From: Lachnospiraceae bacterium
GTDB lineage: Bacteria; Bacillota; Clostridia; Lachnospirales; Lachnospiraceae
Assembly: GCA_022483465.1 (NCBI GenBank)
Contig: JAKVNF010000002.1
Span: 62,001 to 126,000 of the forward strand
Length of the DNA stretch: 64,000 nt
Direction: 5' to 3'
Under the pieces are notes generated by a model, which was not told the origin of the DNA, did no database searches, and saw nothing but the letters and a program-made list of their open reading frames with translations. Positions 1,180 through 43,904 of this stretch are shown in pieces. A program made the position numbers and the translations under genes. Numbering within the stretch: the first letter of the stretch is position 1; every line of letters begins with the position of its first letter.

Positions 1180-1487
1180 GGCGTTAGTTAAGAAACGGGT
1201 TGATAAGCGATCGCCTAGCATGAGACCACTAATCCCTCACTTTGAGCTCGAGCTGGGTACACTCCTATCCGTGCTGTGTTGCATCATGTAACAAAGCATC
1301 ACCTAGATTGCCTAAAAGCATACACCCACTTGCCGAGCATGTGACTATAAATAACAAGATAGGCATTATGCAGAGAAGAAAAGAGCTCCAAATGGGGATT
1401 CTATATCTTCATCAGACATTATCGCGTCGAGAGTTCACCATGGAGGTTGTGGTATGGAACCCGTCAACCCGGTTCTTTACTAACGCC
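1180..1487 (+). mobile_element. MITE copy 1, 308 bp, IS1595-type ends
   Basis: The element is bounded by inverted repeats GGCGTTAG...CGGGTTGA (24 bp, two mismatches between the ends) and flanked by a perfect 8-bp duplication ATGCGAAA at 1172-1179 and 1488-1495. It encodes no transposase. It appears identical to the copy at 42348-42655 by eye. It also matches an inverted copy at 12195-12502 with a few substitutions. Its ends resemble those of the complete IS1595-family element at 40703-41916. It separates the hydrolase stop codon from the hydrolase terminator. Confidence 0.95.
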
Positions 1488-7477: not shown

Positions 7478-8461
7478 ATGAGAATACAGGGATGGAGAAA
7501 AGCGGCAGCCTGTGTGTGCGCGCTGGCTGCCATATTTCTTACTGGCTGCGGCCAGACGCGGATGATGTTCGGCACCGGCGGAACCGCCGGTACCTACTAT
7601 GCCTACGGGGGCGTGCTCGCCCAGTACATGACCAACTACTCCGACGGAAAGGTGACCGCGGTCAGCTCCGGCGGATCGAAGGTCAACATCCAGTCGATCC
7701 AGGACGGGGACTTCCAGCTCGGATTCACCCAGTCGGACGTGGCGTCCTACGCCTGGAACGGCACCAAGTCCTTTGCACAGGACGGGCCGACCCATGACTT
7801 CCGTGTCTTAGGTGCCCTCTACGACGAGACCGTGCAGCTCTTCTCGATGGATCCGGACATCAAGACCGTGGAGGATCTTCGCGGAAAGAGAGTCTCCATC
7901 GGCGAGGCGGGATCCGGCGTCTATTTCAACGCCCTGGATGTGCTGGAGGCTGCCGGGATGACGATCGATGACATCAAGCCCCAGTACCAGAGCTTTGACG
8001 CGAGCAAGGAGGCCTTGAAGGACGGCATGATCGATGCGGCGTTCATCGTGGCCGGCGCTCCGACGCCCGCGATCACGGAGCTGGCAACGACAAACGGCGT
8101 CTCTTTCGTTCCGATCGACGGAGATCTTCGGGACAAGATGCTGAGCGATCATCCCTACTATGCGGCGCAGGATATCCCCGCAGGGACCTACCCCGGCCAG
8201 GATGAGGATGTCGGCACCATCGCGGTCAAGGCGACGGTGGTGGTCTCGAAGGACCTCTCCGAGGACCTGGCGTACCAGATGACTGCCGCGATCTTCGATC
8301 ACATCGACGACATCGCCGCAGAGAACGCAAAGGGCGCCGAGCTCTCTGTCGAGAACGCGGTGAGCGTTGACGCGGCGCCGTTCCACGAGGGCGCGGCAAA
8401 GTACTATCGGGAGAAGGGGTATGAAGTGACGACCCTGGATCCTTCTGAGGACACCCAGTGA
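7478..8461 (+). CDS. TAXI-family TRAP transporter substrate-binding lipoprotein
   Basis: The start at 7478 follows TGAGGAGGATCGG; the frame is open further upstream but without a signal sequence. The 327-residue product has a lipoprotein signal ending LTGC, then MFGTGGTAGTYYAYGG, the hallmark ligand-pocket start of TAXI receptors. DLRGKRVSIGEAGSG and KDGMIDAAFIVAGAPTPA follow. It should be anchored outside the membrane and deliver a small organic acid or amino acid to the TRAP permease encoded 15 bp downstream. That permease is interrupted, so this receptor is probably orphaned in this genome. Confidence 0.9.
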   Translation: MRIQGWRKAAACVCALAAIFLTGCGQTRMMFGTGGTAGTYYAYGGVLAQYMTNYSDGKVTAVSSGGSKVNIQSIQDGDFQLGFTQSDVASYAWNGTKSFAQDGPTHDFRVLGALYDETVQLFSMDPDIKTVEDLRGKRVSIGEAGSGVYFNALDVLEAAGMTIDDIKPQYQSFDASKEALKDGMIDAAFIVAGAPTPAITELATTNGVSFVPIDGDLRDKMLSDHPYYAAQDIPAGTYPGQDEDVGTIAVKATVVVSKDLSEDLAYQMTAAIFDHIDDIAAENAKGAELSVENAVSVDAAPFHEGAAKYYREKGYEVTTLDPSEDTQ

Positions 8462-8475
8462 GGAGGGAGTGGAAG

Positions 8476-9142
8476 ATGGAAGAGAAAGAAAAGAAGAACC
8501 AGATGACAGATCCCTCTTTGGAGGGATCGCCTTCTGCGCAAAATGAAGCTTCTCAGGCGGCTGCGGATGTCGATGCCGTCATGAAGAAGTACGACCGGGA
8601 GTCGAACACGAGGGTCTGGACCGGCGTCCCCGGCATGATCGTGAAGTGCATCATCATCGCGTTCTCGATCTGGTGCATCTGGGTCACGCTGTTTGCGACC
8701 TTCCTCGAGGAGATCCGGCTGACCTCGTTCCTCGGCCTTGTGATCCTGATGGGATTTCTCGTCTACCCCGCAAAGAAGGGGGAGACGAGGGAGAACTACA
8801 TGCCCTGGTATGACATCCTCATGATGGCAGCCGGCATGGCCTCCTACTTCTACTTTACCTTCAACGCGGAGACGATCATTCAGCAGGGCACGCGCTTTAC
8901 GCCGCTCCAGATCGTGATCGGCATTGTCGGCATCGTGATCCTACTGGAAGTGACAAGGCGGTGCGTCGGCCTTCCGATCCTCCTGGTTGCGCTGTTCTTT
9001 GTGTGCTACGCGCTGTTCTTCGGACTCACGAACCCCTCGTTCTACGGGCGCGTGCGGTACTTTGTCCGAAACGTGTTCTACACCAAGGAGGGCATTTTCT
9101 CGACGCCCGTCAATGTCTGCTCCCGCTACATCGTGATCTTTA
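8476..9142 (+). pseudogene. TRAP transporter fused permease, 5' part (split by ISAzo13-family element)
   Basis: The start at 8476 has AGGAGG nine bases upstream. The N-terminal part contains a cytoplasmic acidic leader and the DctQ-like four-helix region, ending ...SRYIVIF at the insertion point. Joining 9142 to 10664, which drops the element and one copy of the 3-bp duplication TTA, restores a 1995-nt frame of 664 codons reading IVIFIIFGAFLERTG. That is the usual length for a fused DctQM permease of the TAXI type. As it stands, the frame runs a few codons into the element and stops at 9165. Confidence 0.9.
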
Positions 9143-10660
9143 GGGTGTGTCATCCTTTAAATTGATCAATTCACGAGTCCTTTTTCAGCCCATGAATGAT
9201 GTAGTTCCATTTGTTAGATGTCCCGATATTGATCCATTCAATATCAACTTTATCGTACTCTTCCTCAGAAGCCTTCAGACCTGTTTTATAGTCATTGTAA
9301 TCAGGCTGACAGGTTACCTTCAGACCAGTTGTTGTAGTTGTTGATCCGATCAACTGAACTACAGTTTCAACACTGATTAGCGGTTTACCTGCCCAACTTT
9401 TTGATATCTCAGAGAAAAGGCGATGCTCCACCTTGTTCCACTTTGATGTTCCCGGCGGGAAATGAGAGATCTGAATCGGAATCCCGATTTCCTCAACCAG
9501 CTTTGCCAGTTCCGTCTTGAACATTCGCACACGGCTGGAATTGCTTCCGCCTCCATCACACGTGATATAAATCATGGTCGCGTCAGGAAACGTGTTCTTG
9601 CCAACGGTGTACCACCAGGCACGTATACTGGCGACTGCGAACTGGGAGGTGTCATGTGTGGTTCCAAGATTTACAAACCCGGTATTATTGTTGACGACGT
9701 AAACACCATATGGTGCAACCTGACCAAGTTCCTTATCCAGAAAATCGTGGTCAAGCACCGCTCGAGGATCTTTGCTATGTCTGTACTCCTTGCCTTTGTT
9801 GGCATAGTCTCCTATGTTTTCCTTCTTTTTGCAATCGATGGAAATCATGGGATTCCCTGCAGCTAAAACCTCTTTACCCGTTGCATTGATGAATTCAAAC
9901 TGCACATTTCTGTCTGGATGTTCCTTACCGACCTGCTTCAGCTTCTTGTTCTGTTGTTTGCTCCAACCGAGTGCCTTCAGCATTCGGTTGACGACATTTC
10001 TCCCAACTGAATAGCCCTTCTCAGCGAGCATAGCTGAGAGCTTGCGATCACTCAGGTTTGTATAAAGCAGCACGGATTCCGGATTACCATAGGTGTAGTC
10101 GTCAAGGATCTCCATCAATGCCGGAATCAGTTCCGGATTTTTCGCAGCTTCACTTTTTCTGCCACCACCCGCGCGGCGCTGTCTGCTTTCAAGTGAAGAA
10201 AGGCTGACGGAGCCATCATAAAGCCCGACAATCTGCTCTGGAGTTGCTTCCAGCAACATTTCAGAATCCTTATCGGTATCCGTAGTGCCAGAGTCTTCTG
10301 CTTCGTCACTTTTGGTTTCTGTCTCTGTGGAAGTAGAAGTCTCGCCGGCAGCATCAGCGATAATGAGCTTGAACTCTTCGTCGGACTTGCGCACGGTATT
10401 ACGTGCCACACCGCATTTTTCACTGATCGCAGACTTGCCGCCATAACCCAGTGCATCAGAAAGAGCTCCTATAATCAGCCGTCTCTGGCGCTCATTGACA
10501 TAGGGCAAAATGACGGAAATATTGGATAAAATATGATCAACGTGGTCGCTATCATATATTGGTGAAGCCATGAATCGACTGCCTCCGATCCGAGATATAA
10601 GGCTATTATAGCAGTCGATTTATTACGTGCCAACTGATTAATTTATTATGTGTCAATTCC
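9143..10660 (-). mobile_element. ISAzo13-family insertion sequence, complete, 1518 bp
   Basis: The ends form imperfect inverted repeats of about 29 bp with matching blocks GG, TG-CA, TAAATT and ATCA-TT. They are flanked by the duplication TTA at 9140-9142 and 10661-10663. The single transposase gene is on the minus strand. The element splits the TRAP permease gene. Confidence 0.88.
9171..10571 (-). CDS. ISAzo13-family transposase
   Basis: The 466-residue protein has an N-terminal helix-turn-helix region (GGKSAISEKCGVARNTVRK), a Ser/Thr/Glu-rich linker (STSTETETKSDE) and the GGGRKS motif. The DDE domain follows, with SIDCKKKENIGDYANKG, GTTHDTSQFAVASIRAWW, ITCDGGGSNSSR and HFPPGTSKWNKVEHRLFS. 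These are hallmarks of ISAzo13 transposases. The frame is intact, so the element may be active. Confidence 0.93.
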   Translation of the reverse strand: MASPIYDSDHVDHILSNISVILPYVNERQRRLIIGALSDALGYGGKSAISEKCGVARNTVRKSDEEFKLIIADAAGETSTSTETETKSDEAEDSGTTDTDKDSEMLLEATPEQIVGLYDGSVSLSSLESRQRRAGGGRKSEAAKNPELIPALMEILDDYTYGNPESVLLYTNLSDRKLSAMLAEKGYSVGRNVVNRMLKALGWSKQQNKKLKQVGKEHPDRNVQFEFINATGKEVLAAGNPMISIDCKKKENIGDYANKGKEYRHSKDPRAVLDHDFLDKELGQVAPYGVYVVNNNTGFVNLGTTHDTSQFAVASIRAWWYTVGKNTFPDATMIYITCDGGGSNSSRVRMFKTELAKLVEEIGIPIQISHFPPGTSKWNKVEHRLFSEISKSWAGKPLISVETVVQLIGSTTTTTGLKVTCQPDYNDYKTGLKASEEEYDKVDIEWINIGTSNKWNYIIHGLKKDS

Positions 10661-12194: not shown

Positions 12195-12502
12195 GGCGTT
12201 AGTAAAGAACCGGGTTGATGGGTTCCATACCACAACCTCCATGGTGAACTCTCGACGCGATAATGTCCGATGAAGATATAGAATCCCCATTTGGAGCTCT
12301 TTTCTTCTCCGCATAATGCCTATCTTGTTATTTATAGTCACATACTCGGCAAGTGAGTGTATGTGTTTAGGCAATCTAGGTGATGCTTTGTTACATGATG
12401 CAACACAGCACGGATAGGAGTGTACCCAGCTCGAGCTCAAAGTGAGGTATTAGTGGTCTCATGCTAGGCGATCGCTTATCAACCCGTTTCTTAACTAACG
12501 CC
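12195..12502 (-). mobile_element. MITE copy 2, 308 bp, inserted in the yafQ toxin gene
   Basis: This is an inverted copy of the element at 1180-1487, flanked by the perfect 8-bp duplication TTTGACAT at 12187-12194 and 12503-12510. It differs from copies 1 and 3 by several substitutions. It has the same GGCGTTAG ends. Confidence 0.95.
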
Positions 12503-16472: not shown

Positions 16473-18226
16473 GGCCCTTTCACTTTTTTTGTGGGATGAG
16501 CCCTTCCTGACCGTCTCCGAGGTCCTCTGCCCCCGGTCCTCCACAGGTGCCCTCTGCTCTCCGTGTATCTGTACTCCCGGGCGGACCGTGGGAGCATCGC
16601 CGAGGGGCCCACGGTCTCGGAACAGCGTTCTCCATCAGATCCGCTTGTACGGATTTCTGGATGCATCCATGATCTTTAGGAAAAAGTACTCATCATCTGG
16701 AAGGCCATAGGCTTTCCTGCGGATGACCTTGATGTGTGCGTTGATCCCCTCTATCTTCCCGGAGCTGATCGGACAGAGCCCGTATCCCACAATGCCGTCA
16801 AAGTGGTTCTCAATGAGCCTGGCAAACCAGAGAAAGTGCTCATTTTTCGTGCCCCTGCACCAGTCGATGATATCTGTAAACTTCTCGATCATCGTCGCCT
16901 GATTGGCTGAGGCATATGCTTCCTGCATGGCCTGCTTGATCAGATCACAGGTGAACAGCAGCTTGTTCGAGTTGATGATGTCGTCGTATCGCCGCTCGAA
17001 ATCGTCATGGGTATGCCTGTAATCGGTCGTACCGAAGATCGCAGATCCCTTGCGGCACACCTTGCCCTCACGGGCTTCCTGATCGTGTTTCTGCAGGGAC
17101 TCCCTGCTGGCACAGAGTATCTTCCTTGACCCCTTCAGGATAGCAGCTTCCTCGACCAGGCCTTCCTTCTTCAGGCGGATCTGTTCCTCCTTCCGAACCT
17201 CGGCAATGACCTTCTCGTTGAAGTTCTTGACGATGTGGAAATGATCATAAACGATCTGGATCCAACCGCATTTTGCCTTGAAAGCCTCCTGGAAGTCGCT
17301 GTTCATATCCATGGCAACGGCCTCTACATGATGCATCCAGTCGTCACCCACCAGCTCCATGAATTCTTCTACAACGGCCTTTGTTTTGCCTGCTCGGATG
17401 AACAGCACCGCACCGGTTATCAGGTCTATGATGTGCGTCGCATATTTGTGTCCGTTATGCAGCTTGAACTCGTCAATGGCAAGATACCTTGCATAGGCGG
17501 CAGGCTTTTTGAGCTTGCCATTCTCATCCGCGTAAAGACTCTTCAGACGCTTAAGATCGATCTTCTTGATCGTATTGATGTTGACGCCAGTAATGATTGC
17601 CGTGTCCGTAAGGGTAAATTCATCCATAGAAAGATAGCGAATGATCAGCTGCTCAAGCTCCTTTGTAATCATCGAATCATCTGCCTTGAACGCGACATCC
17701 GGTGTGATGGTCTTGCCACAGAGATTGCATCTCCACTGGTACTTGTCGCACTCAATGATGGTTTGGCATGCCTGAAAGGGAATGTGTTTGATCTTCGTGT
17801 GGTAGGTCTGATTCTTGTACATTCTGCGCCCGCAGCAAGAGCATACAGGATGGTCCAGCTGGTCCAATTTACCGCGCAGAATATAAGCCCTTTTGAAGGT
17901 ATTCTCACTCAGTTTGCTCTTCCGCATGGAGTGGAAGGGCCTGACGTCTCGAATAGGAACCTCTTCAACGCTCTCCTGATGGAACCCCGTCAGGTGGCTT
18001 GGGAACATCAGATAGTCATTTTGAGTCCGGGCAGCAAAAGACATTTGCCCATTCGCCTCGGTGTATGTATAATTCTGATTCATAAGAGGTTTCCTTTTTA
18101 TCCCGTATTGCATATCTTGGTCGACGTGCAATCGAGATGATATCAGGAAATCTCTTTTTGTAAATAGAAGATATTCTCTATAGGCTGCCTTCTTTTAGTG
18201 CATCACACAAGAAAAATGAAAGACCC
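16473..18226 (-). mobile_element. ISL3-family insertion sequence, complete, 1754 bp
   Basis: Imperfect inverted ends of about 27 bp (GGCCCTTTCAC... and GGGTCTTTCAT..., each continuing to TTGTG-GATG) are flanked by the perfect 8-bp duplication AGAAAAGA at 16465-16472 and 18227-18234. Eight-bp duplications are usual for ISL3. The transposase gene is intact on the minus strand. Confidence 0.93.
16635..18131 (-). CDS. ISL3-family transposase
   Basis: The product has an N-terminal zinc-binding region (CSCCGRRMYKNQ, CDKYQWRCNLCGKTI) and a helix-turn-helix (MDEFTLTDTAIITGVNINTI). The DDE core has YLAIDEFKLHNGHKYATHII, AVAMDMNSDFQEAFKAKCG and YDHFHIVKNFNEKV, ending with SSGKIEGINAHIKVIRRKAYG. This is the ISL3/TnpA layout. 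The likely start is the ATG at 18083 (MNQNYTYTE) or the upstream Met at 18131. The coding frame is complete. Confidence 0.93.
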   Translation of the reverse strand: MHVDQDMQYGIKRKPLMNQNYTYTEANGQMSFAARTQNDYLMFPSHLTGFHQESVEEVPIRDVRPFHSMRKSKLSENTFKRAYILRGKLDQLDHPVCSCCGRRMYKNQTYHTKIKHIPFQACQTIIECDKYQWRCNLCGKTITPDVAFKADDSMITKELEQLIIRYLSMDEFTLTDTAIITGVNINTIKKIDLKRLKSLYADENGKLKKPAAYARYLAIDEFKLHNGHKYATHIIDLITGAVLFIRAGKTKAVVEEFMELVGDDWMHHVEAVAMDMNSDFQEAFKAKCGWIQIVYDHFHIVKNFNEKVIAEVRKEEQIRLKKEGLVEEAAILKGSRKILCASRESLQKHDQEAREGKVCRKGSAIFGTTDYRHTHDDFERRYDDIINSNKLLFTCDLIKQAMQEAYASANQATMIEKFTDIIDWCRGTKNEHFLWFARLIENHFDGIVGYGLCPISSGKIEGINAHIKVIRRKAYGLPDDEYFFLKIMDASRNPYKRI

Positions 18227-40702: not shown

Positions 40703-41916
40703 GGCGTTAGTAAGAAAACGGGTTGATAAGCAATAAGTGCATCTTGTAGTCATCAAATTGCAAGCAGATTGAGCTCCTTAACATCTCCATAATGGTGTAC
40801 CTTCTTGGGATTCCTGGATGCAAAGAGAGCGTCCGCAAGTTCCCCAATCGTGGTCCTCTGCCTGTACGCTGCCCGGAATACGAGGTTGTAACGGTTCAAA
40901 TACTTGGTAGCCACGCCGCGATATTCGATATAGCGGTGCTTGATAAAGGAGTGAAGGTTGTTCACAGTGTTCAGATTGAAGAAACTTGCCGACTCCTTCT
41001 TCACATTCATGAACGTGATTCCCAGGATCTTGCCCAGTCTTGGATACACATTCATGCCGTCCGTCAGGAAAAGTGTTCCCTTCTGGACATGACCAGTATA
41101 GATATCAACAACATCCGCACTGGAAGGCCTTGCCCGGTTCTCGGATTTCACGATCAGATCGCCAGTCTTGCGCTGTACTGCGGTGCAGATACAGATCTGC
41201 TCGTCTGAAAGGCCGCGTTTGGATGCGGGAGTGCCACGCTTGCGGGGCTTTCGACTGGCATCAGGGCCAAATTTCGTACCTTTTTTGGACTCCGGAACGT
41301 AGGTTTCATCCGCTTCCACGACATCTTCCACCGTGGCTGGCTGCTCCACCTGCATGTCCTCGAGAGCAAGCATGATCTTATGCCGCATGAAGAACAGACT
41401 GCTATGGCTGATCTTGCATCCATGGCTGGCAAGTGACTTGACCGTCTTATCCAGAGAGGTCCCCCTGAGCGTCTCTTCCAGAACCTTGGTCCAGATCTCA
41501 GTACCAAAGTGTGAGCCTGAGAGCAAAGTGTTGCTCGTTGTAACAAATGACGTTCCACATTGCCTGCAGATGTATGCCTGTTTTCCATGTTTGTGTCCAT
41601 TCCTAACAACATGAGCATTGGAATGGCAGATCGGACAATCCAAACGGGGAGCAATCATCTTCTTCGGAGAAGAGGTTGCACTCTCATGGGAGAAGCCCTC
41701 CATGAGCTTGTTAACAAGAAGAATCAGGTCGTCCCTGGAAAGATCTCTGGCTTCGGTCAGTATGCGCTCAATGCAGCTCATAGTCTTGCCCTCCTGGCAA
41801 GACTATTGTAGTTCAAGTTAGAGAAGGCCGTTGTACAGCAGAATGTACAAAACGGCATATTTTATACTTCTGCTAAAATGCTTTGGAGCTTATCAACCCG
41901 TTTTCTTACTAACGCC
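40703..41916 (-). mobile_element. IS1595-family insertion sequence, complete, 1214 bp
   Basis: The 29-bp terminal inverted repeats are perfect, beginning GGCGTTAGTAAG and ending CGGGTTGATAAGC. They are flanked by the perfect 8-bp duplication AAAGTAAA at 40695-40702 and 41917-41924. The ends closely match those of the three MITEs in this window, so this element is their probable autonomous partner. Confidence 0.96.
40753..41781 (-). CDS. IS1595-family transposase
   Basis: The 342-residue protein has an N-terminal zinc ribbon (CPICHSNAHVVRNG, YICRQCGTSF). The DDE-type core has VVEADETYVPESKKG, TLFLTDGMNVYP and NNLHSFIKHRYIEYRGVATK, ending LNRYNLVFRAAY. This is the IS1595 (ISXO2-like) layout. 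The frame is intact, so the enzyme may be active in cis and on the MITEs in trans. Confidence 0.94.
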   Translation of the reverse strand: MSCIERILTEARDLSRDDLILLVNKLMEGFSHESATSSPKKMIAPRLDCPICHSNAHVVRNGHKHGKQAYICRQCGTSFVTTSNTLLSGSHFGTEIWTKVLEETLRGTSLDKTVKSLASHGCKISHSSLFFMRHKIMLALEDMQVEQPATVEDVVEADETYVPESKKGTKFGPDASRKPRKRGTPASKRGLSDEQICICTAVQRKTGDLIVKSENRARPSSADVVDIYTGHVQKGTLFLTDGMNVYPRLGKILGITFMNVKKESASFFNLNTVNNLHSFIKHRYIEYRGVATKYLNRYNLVFRAAYRQRTTIGELADALFASRNPKKVHHYGDVKELNLLAI

Positions 41917-42318
41917 AAAGTAAATCACATGATTTAGCATCCGGAACGGAAGGATCAGGCCGTCCGGTTTCGCGTTTGCCCCGCAGGCGATCAGCGTCGA
42001 GATGCGGTCCGTCTGCGACGCTGCGAGAAGACCGATGATTCCGCCGTCGGAAAAGCCGGCGAGTGTAACATGATCGAGATGAAGCCGGCGGATGAATTCG
42101 AGAATATCCGCGGCCATCTCGCGGTAGTGAAGCTCCGCAATACGCGTACTTCTTCCGTGCCCCCGTGTGTCGATGAGATAGCACGAAAAATGCGGTTCCA
42201 GAAGCTTTGTGCTGAAGATCCTGTGGTCCTCGCCGTTCCCATGGAGAAGAATCAGAGGATCGCCGTGTCCCCGGACCTCATAGCAGAGCGTAATCCCGTT
42301 TACAGACAGCTCTATCAA
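41917..42318 (-). pseudogene. Alpha/beta hydrolase, N-terminal part
   Basis: The fragment begins MIELSVNGITLCYEVRGHGD and has the oxyanion block LILLHGNGED, DTRGHGRS and the nucleophile elbow LAGFSDGGIIG. It breaks at VIYF, where the IS1595-family element is inserted. The remaining frame runs a few codons into the element and stops. Without the C-terminal part, the catalytic triad is incomplete. Confidence 0.88.
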
Positions 42319-42347
42319 GATTCTGAACCTTCTTTCTGATTCTTCAT

Positions 42348-42655
42348 GGCGTTAGTTAAGAAACGGGTTGATAAGCGATCGCCTAGCATGAGACCACTAA
42401 TCCCTCACTTTGAGCTCGAGCTGGGTACACTCCTATCCGTGCTGTGTTGCATCATGTAACAAAGCATCACCTAGATTGCCTAAAAGCATACACCCACTTG
42501 CCGAGCATGTGACTATAAATAACAAGATAGGCATTATGCAGAGAAGAAAAGAGCTCCAAATGGGGATTCTATATCTTCATCAGACATTATCGCGTCGAGA
42601 GTTCACCATGGAGGTTGTGGTATGGAACCCGTCAACCCGGTTCTTTACTAACGCC
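42348..42655 (+). mobile_element. MITE copy 3, 308 bp
   Basis: It appears identical to copy 1 by eye and is flanked by the perfect 8-bp duplication TTCTTCAT at 42340-42347 and 42656-42663. One flank overlaps the stop codon of the DUF2156 gene, which remains intact. The other lies just upstream of the split hydrolase start at 42318, so it may have separated that gene from its promoter. Confidence 0.95.
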
Positions 42656-42659
42656 TTCT

Positions 42660-43904
42660 TCATTTCTGTGGACTCTTCGATCTGTCTTCGCGTTTCTCCG
42701 CTTTCTTGCTTCTACGTTCTTCGGCCTTTTTTTCGCGTTCCTCTATTTTATCTTCTTTGCGCTCCTCGGCCTTCTCCTTTCGCTCTTCAACCTTTTCTTT
42801 GTGTTCTTCGACTTTCTCCTTGTGCTCTTCCGCGAGCATATCCGCAAATGCACGGACATAGTCAGAGAAGCCGGCAGAGTCCAGCACGGTACACATGTCC
42901 TTGTCCATGAGAAGGGACATATGGCGGGGGCTGCAGGCGATATATACATTTTTCCACGTTGGATTGAACTTGTTCTTGGCCTCATACAGAGACTTGAATC
43001 CGTATATATAGTTCATGTTCTCGAAGACGTAGTGTTCCTCTTTTTCAAATGCGGCCGGATGAGGCTCATCTTCCGTGTTGAAGAGCGGGGCAATCCCGAA
43101 ACTTGCTTCCACTGCACCCTCTTTTTTCAACACATCCATCTCGTCGTGGAACAGGAGTTCCATGACCCCGTGCGGGCAGCCGTCGCGCCGGCGCATGATG
43201 TCGATGATCCAGCCCTTTCCGGATCGATACGGATTGAGGACGTGGAAGCCCTGTATGACACCAGCTTTGTCTACGGCGTAGAAATAGCGCTTGTCGCAGT
43301 CTCTGTCCAGCATCATTGTGCCGACTGCGAACTGAAGCCGGCTCGTGTGCTTCTCGTCAAACCACTGGGCGGAGATTTCCTTCATTTCCCGCTCAATCTC
43401 TGGGTCACGCTTTTCGTATGGCCTGTACTCCCGGACTGTCAGTCCGTGATGCACGGCGGTGTGGTAATTTGACCGGACCTTCGCGCATTTTCCGCCGGAC
43501 ATGGACCAGGAAGGCACAGAGAAGACAGCTTCCTCGCCGCTTTTATAAATTCCGAATCCGGCTTCGCGGTAGGCGGCGAGATAGTCCTCCAGCGCAAACA
43601 GAAAAATGAGATGCCTGTGCGTGTTTTCTGCGTATTCCAGGATTTCGCTGATAAAGATCGGAAGGTCCTCCGGACGGCACACCGGGTCCCCGCAAACGAC
43701 CATGGTGCGGCCGGATACAGCATAAGAGGCAACGCCCTCCACCTTTTTTGAGAAAAACCACTGCTTGTCGTCCTCGAGGGAGAGATAAGCGAGGGAGTTG
43801 AATGCGTAGGTTCGAAGGAGTGACCGCACGCGGAGCCAGTCCGCTTCGCGGCTCCTTGCGGGAGTTTCGTTTTTCGTATGTATTGTTTCACTTGAAGTAT
43901 TCAT
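42660..43904 (-). CDS. DUF2156 (phosphatidylglycerol lysyltransferase C-terminal-like) protein with charged tail
   Basis: The start at 43904 (MNTSSETIHTKNE) is chosen over the longer frame, which has no site. The body has a GNAT-like double domain: SLAYLSLEDDKQWFFSKKVEG, MVVCGDPVCRPED, LIFLFALEDYLAAYREAGFG, VRSNYHTAVHHGLTVREY and FNPTWKNVYIAC. MprF-type relatives transfer amino acids to lipids, but this soluble form lacks the membrane half. The last 55 or so residues are a Glu/Lys/Arg repeat (EEHKEKVEEHKEKVEERKEK). Function uncertain. Confidence 0.8.
   Translation of the reverse strand: MNTSSETIHTKNETPARSREADWLRVRSLLRTYAFNSLAYLSLEDDKQWFFSKKVEGVASYAVSGRTMVVCGDPVCRPEDLPIFISEILEYAENTHRHLIFLFALEDYLAAYREAGFGIYKSGEEAVFSVPSWSMSGGKCAKVRSNYHTAVHHGLTVREYRPYEKRDPEIEREMKEISAQWFDEKHTSRLQFAVGTMMLDRDCDKRYFYAVDKAGVIQGFHVLNPYRSGKGWIIDIMRRRDGCPHGVMELLFHDEMDVLKKEGAVEASFGIAPLFNTEDEPHPAAFEKEEHYVFENMNYIYGFKSLYEAKNKFNPTWKNVYIACSPRHMSLLMDKDMCTVLDSAGFSDYVRAFADMLAEEHKEKVEEHKEKVEERKEKAEERKEDKIEEREKKAEERRSKKAEKREDRSKSPQK

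Follow-up and report, generated by a model that had tools for sequence, protein, structure and literature searches.

A high-copy 308-bp MITE in a Lachnospiraceae genome follows the same target rule as a resident IS1595-family insertion sequence

Insertion sequences of the IS1595 family are marked by 8-bp target duplications, a zinc finger and kinship with the Merlin transposons, according to the accessible part of PMC8101967. Merlin elements, as described in the same part of that source, are eukaryotic transposons with a related transposase domain, ends beginning with GG and duplications of 8 or 9 bp. In Haloquadratum walsbyi, a MITE of 165 bp with 7 copies, inverted repeats of 25 bp and direct repeats of 8 bp has been tied to ISHwa6, a member of the IS1595 family (PMC3852290 Table 4). 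MITEAba12 of Acinetobacter is 111-114 bp long, has ISAba12 as its partner and generates 9-bp duplications for which the accessible part of PMC6382973 gives no sequence rule. MITEs of the IS1595 family are already known, and the 308-bp MITE of a Lachnospiraceae bacterium reported here is a further example, its novelty being set by the literature rather than by comparison with ISfinder. Set beside the H. walsbyi element by description, it is likewise non-autonomous, with a probable resident IS1595-family partner, inverted terminal repeats and 8-bp duplications, and it differs in its length, in its abundance (113 ends versus 7 copies) and in residing in a bacterium instead of an archaeon. With MITEAba12, as far as that partial source goes, it shares a high copy number in a bacterial genome and a partner deduced from ends and duplication length, whereas MITEAba12 is shorter, belongs to ISAba12 and has only 9-bp duplications without a rule such as the WW rule described below (W, A or T). 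The likeness to Merlin lies in the related transposase domain, the GG-starting ends and the 8- or 9-bp duplications that the accessible text reports; Merlin has eukaryotic hosts, and we treat this as a resemblance only, drawn from descriptions and not from a comparison of proteins.

The window, a stretch of 64,000 nucleotides that was analysed as a whole, contains three copies of the MITE and one complete IS of 1,214 bp, hereafter IS1214 (Table 1). An initial annotation of this DNA had described three 308-bp elements, the middle one inverted, next to an IS with perfect 29-bp ends, and had noted perfect 8-bp duplications at all four insertions as well as the apparent identity of two MITE copies. 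Reading of the window bore this out: the two ends of IS1214 are identical over 29 bp, the four duplications are present, and the outer MITE copies have the same sequence, to which the inverted copy is 97.4% identical. The interiors of MITE and IS had likewise been regarded as unrelated, and BLASTN with 7-base words found no similarity between them past the terminal 24-33 bp. The end pattern GGCGTTAGTWARRAAMCGGGTTGA occurs eight times in the window and in none of 100 shuffles, so that chance is ruled out. The MITE at 1180-1487 follows an apiosidase-like gene (27-1172) immediately after its stop codon, and IS1214, on its 3' side as read on the neighbour's minus strand, splits an alpha/beta-hydrolase-like frame (41917-42318). 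The window also carries transposase genes of the ISL3 family and of the DDE_Tnp_ISAZ013 type (9171-10571), and hence at least three IS families.

Table 1. Mobile-element features of the window, with positions counted from its first nucleotide
Feature	Position	Strand	Remarks
MITE copy, subfamily B	1180..1487	+	duplication ATGCGAAA at 1172-1179 and 1488-1495
MITE copy, subfamily A	12195..12502	- (inverted)	duplication TTTGACAT
Unoccupied target octamer TTCTGATT	18073..18080	+	beside ISL3-family transposase gene 16635-18131
IS1595-family IS, IS1214 (1,214 bp)	40703..41916	-	duplication AAAGTAAA
IS1214 terminal inverted repeat, 29 bp	40703..40731	+	
IS1214 transposase gene, 342 aa	40753..41781	-	N-terminal zinc ribbon and IS1595 DDE domain
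IS1214 terminal inverted repeat, 29 bp	41888..41916	-	
MITE copy, subfamily B	42348..42655	+	duplication TTCTTCAT; sequence as in the copy at 1180

The proposed assignment of the IS to the IS1595 family was confirmed by its transposase, which scored above the NCBIfam and Pfam cut-offs, with 112.7 bits for NF033547 (transpos_IS1595, cut-off 75), 43.9 bits for PF12762 (DDE_Tnp_IS1595, cut-off 27) and, at the N-terminus, 42.5 bits for NF050000 (IS1_IS1595_Zn, cut-off 28). IS1214 combines a DDE transposase, an N-terminal zinc-binding domain and an 8-bp duplication, as the family does. Part of the duplications in this genome are 9 bp long, and no feature alien to the family was seen. The 308-bp repeat is short and lacks a transposase (in its three commonest haplotypes, no stop-free stretch exceeds 85 codons), is dispersed in copies with duplications, and has 24-bp ends, left and right, that each show 3 mismatches to those of the resident IS1214. 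It appears very improbable that this repeat is kept for a cellular role, as an RNA element, terminator or promoter, and is not simply a transposon. Its whole strand does fold better than shuffled sequences (z of -4.3 and -4.8), but this is due to the terminal repeats, since interior windows without them remain near the shuffles (z of -0.1, 1.4 and 0.3, no better) except for one with a weak effect (z of -2.0). Furthermore, neither a promoter- or terminator-like site in 42250-42760 nor an Rfam match in the window was found, and the complete copies read genome-wide occur in both orientations (55 minus, 48 plus).

The abundance of both elements was assessed in the whole genome, which comprises 4,300,133 bases in 4 contigs. 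When up to 2 mismatches were allowed, 170 forward and 167 reverse ends were found (337), and the reversed control pattern gave no match on either strand. A pattern specific for the left end of the MITE matched 113 times in the 4.30 Mb (55 forward, 58 reverse). About 53 copies of IS1214 follow by subtraction and not by counting (337 ends less 226 of the MITE and 4 of a second, 1,187-bp IS1595 element leave 107), a figure blurred by truncated copies. BLAST-type searches located at least 43 MITE places and at least 40 IS places. The genome-wide search for 308-bp copies that the initial annotation had proposed was carried out by reading 126 stretches in addition to the window; the stretch repeating a window copy (L159) was left out, and seven MITE left ends of contig 4 lie outside this sample. 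It yielded 103 complete MITEs, 41 complete copies of IS1214 and 2 of the 1,187-bp element, besides truncated or split ones. The complete MITEs represent six sequences with 59, 22, 16, 4, 1 and 1 copies, 101 of them falling into four haplotypes and two being singletons. Subfamily A is the commonest type (59 of 103); subfamilies A, B and C are 4 to 10 bases apart, and a single copy (L173) differs by 18. The IS1214 copies form two groups 17 bases apart, each represented by 16 exact copies, alongside nine single variants, and the transposase frame is open in all 41. The small number of MITE haplotypes and singletons, together with the uniform IS1214 groups and their open frames, speaks for a very recent spread of both elements, barring an evening-out of copies by assembly polishing or gene conversion; in an assembly, repeat copies may appear more alike than they are.

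A duplication flanks 101 of the 103 complete MITEs, of 8 bp in 92 cases and of 9 bp in nine; the two without one are L089 and L105, the latter as the MITE part of a 340-bp hybrid that is itself flanked by TTTTTATA. For IS1214 the corresponding numbers are 31 with 8 bp, six with 9 bp and four with none, and one of the two copies of the 1,187-bp element has an 8-bp duplication, TTCTCGAA, that also fits the rule found at these sites. After removal of nine copies with an already seen flank (each of the two tandem arrays still contributing two sites), the duplication reads WWN4WW when 8 bp long or WWN5WW when 9 bp long at 91 of the 92 sites of the MITE and at 36 of the 37 of IS1214. At either end of the duplication, the two outermost bases consist of A or T in 82 of 83 octamers and all nine nonamers of the MITE, and in 30 of 31 octamers and all six nonamers of IS1214; the exceptions are one site each (L165, ACCGGGAA, and L096, TACTGAGA). 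In a first sample, C or G at positions 1, 2, 7 and 8 was never found in MITE octamers (68 sites) and once in IS octamers (31 sites). As a background, 3.7% of the octamers of the window fit WWN4WW and 2.8% of its nonamers fit WWN5WW. The joined flanks themselves provide a fairer control, the window having 58% G+C versus about 48-52% in the element flanks: when they are shifted by 3 to 30 bases, between 4 and 33 of 100 sites fit, and in register 99 of 100. Thus, the MITE and IS1214 follow one common target rule. The 9-bp duplications retain the WW at either end, a hint that the two strand-transfer steps each have a WW of their own as anchor. Open frames of at least 600 bases span 37% of 75 MITE sites and 43% of 37 IS sites, compared with 55% of 168 rule-fitting sites and 78% of 4,000 random sites of the window; by this crude measure, whose control is one window of higher G+C, fewer insertions of either element appear to lie in genes.

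In our view, the 308-bp repeat is very probably a non-autonomous MITE that an IS1595-family transposase from a resident element moves in trans, with IS1214 as the likely main supplier. The common target rule and the 340-bp hybrid support such a mobilisation indirectly. According to this proposal, the MITE, whose interior is unrelated to any resident IS and which has no transposase of its own, would be bound at its ends of about 24 bp (GGCGTTAGT-N7-CGGGTTGA) by an IS1595-family transposase from the same cell and moved by it. Strand transfer would join the element beside a WW dinucleotide on each target strand, and two WW pairs that together span 8 bp, or more rarely 9 bp, would give rise to the WWN4WW or WWN5WW duplications. 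Most of the transposase would come from IS1214, with its roughly 53 copies and a frame open in every copy read, and the 1,187-bp relative would be the likely source of the MITE ends and a possible second supplier.

The hybrid at L105 consists of the first 32 bases of IS1214 and a C-type MITE, 340 bp in total, with perfect copies of TTTTTATA abutting both outer ends and no remaining IS1214 sequence between them. In the simplest account, a MITE entered the IS end, as it did in L059, and the outer IS end and the far MITE end were then paired by the transposase, which moved the piece between them. Alternatively, a deletion between the nine terminal bases common to MITE and IS ends could have produced it. 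A comparable question is posed by a 624-bp unit in which a C-type MITE contains an A-type MITE at AATAACAA and which is present in identical form at L082:4301-4924 and L174:379-1002. If hybrid and unit had both formed in place by recombination or deletion, they would be uninformative as to which ends cooperate. The common terminal bases would allow for this, and IS1214 copies with unmatched flanks that pair with one another, as recombination between IS copies would leave them (L043:501-1714, L103:501-1714 and L049:1556-3963), show that such recombination occurs here. Formation in place is nevertheless rather improbable, as the perfect WWN4WW octamer sits exactly at the two outermost bases of the hybrid, and as the 624-bp unit has a different duplication of its own at each place, TTCAAAAA in L082 and TTTTCGAAA in L174. 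This nested pair appears to have been moved as a single piece.

Two independent tandem arrays were also found. At L059 (501-2978), an IS1214 with the duplication TCAGGAAA contains, at its bases 25-32, four MITEs in the order C', C, C', C with TAAGCAAT between neighbours, and at L169 (512-1135) two MITE units lie in tandem; in both arrays, neighbouring units share a single 8-bp duplication. By rough arithmetic, 113 copies among some 160,000 fitting octamers (3.7% of 4.3 Mb) would by chance give about 0.1 re-entries into an existing duplication, fewer than the arrays require. The shared octamers could stem from re-targeting of the elements' own duplications or from slippage between them.

The search for empty sites suggested in the initial annotation was carried out among the loci read. 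Of the 139 insertions that have a duplication, 26 gave an uninterrupted match to the joined flanks. Six of them belong to arrays and match the array in which they lie, a further two are MITEs in a MITE, and for the remaining 18 (11 MITE and 7 IS insertions) the match is an empty copy of other repeated DNA, all in this same genome. In one such repeat, the ISL3 element, the octamer TTCTGATT is occupied by a minus-oriented MITE in L121, by a plus-oriented one in L183, and by an IS1214 with its two flanks now found in L103 and L043, and it is unoccupied in the copy of the window. The 340-bp hybrid and this octamer, struck by two MITEs and an IS, tie the MITE and IS1214 systems together. A strain pair differing by a single MITE insertion was not found. 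The viral-classed contig L011 (IMG/VR 3300044558_000057) had been considered as a strain-level empty site and was rejected, being identical to L099 of this genome over 624 bp (8315-8938) including the IS1214 junction; by inspection, a Vsr-like and a restriction-like gene lie beside this region. Six MITE copies (L052, L054, L070, L073, L166 and L176, each at about position 501) have a common flank and the duplication TAAACGAT; a comparison of three of them showed identity over 500 bp on the left side, and these copies are carried within another repeated element.

With regard to the source of the transposase, the initial annotation had named the IS at 40703 as the probable autonomous partner of the MITE. 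Ends, target rule and duplications agree with an IS1595 partner in the window, and the hybrid is the best link between the two; the designation of this particular element as the partner is weakened by the 1,187-bp element, whose left end is closer to the MITE. The latter IS occurs in two identical copies (L075:2734-3920 and L049:2777-3963), both on contig 1, for which alone the count is near complete; it is 72.4% identical to IS1214 and has an intact frame for a transposase of 336 aa. In L049 it lies seven bases from an IS1214. Its left end has 1 mismatch in 24 bases to each MITE end, its right end 5 and 3, so that in the best pairing of both ends 4 of 48 bases differ, versus 6 for IS1214, and the BLAST match of its end to the MITE is 96.4% over 28 bp versus 87.5% over 32 bp. 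A better match of the MITE ends to another transposase, which the initial annotation had said would speak against the pairing, is therefore present in part, in the form of a close relative whose right end matches no better. We consider it unlikely, though a reading with some weight, that this relative and not IS1214 mobilises the MITE and that IS1214 spread in a burst of its own: the closer left end, the intact frame and the one clean, rule-obeying duplication argue for it, but only two copies stand against about 53 of IS1214, its right end is no closer, and the hybrid joins the MITE to an end of IS1214, not of the 1,187-bp element. Because of its abundance and the hybrid, IS1214 is favoured as the present supplier of transposase. 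The ends of the MITE may stem from the lineage of the 1,187-bp element, whose left end is only 1 mismatch away, and use of the MITE by both transposases is possible.

The MITE was found in no other genome searched. Its 241-bp interior is present in one of 62 genomes of the genus, its own, and in none of the 61 congeners; the whole MITE is present in its own and in none of the 396 others of 397 genomes of the family, and the interior has no match in plasmid and phage sequences. The occurrence of the MITE in genomes lacking a matching IS1595 element, which had been named as evidence against the proposed pairing, was thus not observed. In viral contigs, one match to a 19-mer of the interior extends over only 21 matching bases and was taken as chance. 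IS1214 was detected in three of the 62 genomes of the genus, namely its own and two with weak short matches, and its transposase at E 1e-60 in two of 397 family genomes, its own and one with a 42% relative. The end pattern with 1 mismatch occurs in one of 392 genomes of the order. With 3 mismatches it occurs in 48 of the 62 genomes of the genus, the reversed control being as frequent or more so, and these matches were dismissed as chance except for one diverged pair of ends, GGTGTTAGTCAGGAA, about 1,128 bp apart in a congener (G399 contig 98, 1892-3019), which probably marks a distant IS of the same group. Another candidate (L012) lies inside a reading frame, shows no similarity to the other loci and was dismissed as a chance match. 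Among the matches listed, IS1214 occurs once, with 99.8% identity, in the MAG Eubacterium sp. UW_Xyl_LCO2, and a relative of the 1,187-bp element once, with 82.6% identity and a frame of only 230 aa, in Fusobacterium naviforme ATCC 25832; the MITE interior is absent from both records.

Overall, most bacterial MITEs have been linked to a partner IS by similar ends alone; here, some 170 insertions in one genome yield a target rule precise enough for a site-by-site comparison of MITE and IS. In the IS1595 literature found, available mostly at listing level, a WW-type target motif was not seen. The 340-bp hybrid and the 624-bp unit lead us to propose, tentatively, that new non-autonomous elements are arising now, and that the transposase reads two independent WW half-sites with a reach of 8 or 9 bp, can use ends of different elements as a pair and has a tendency to insert again into the duplication next to an existing copy, which would produce the tandem arrays. 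With the target rule, the natural empty sites and the hybrids with one end of each element, cross-mobilisation between the two sister ISs and the MITE can be tested directly. The WW rule provides an IS1595-family target motif to look for in other members of the family and in Merlin.
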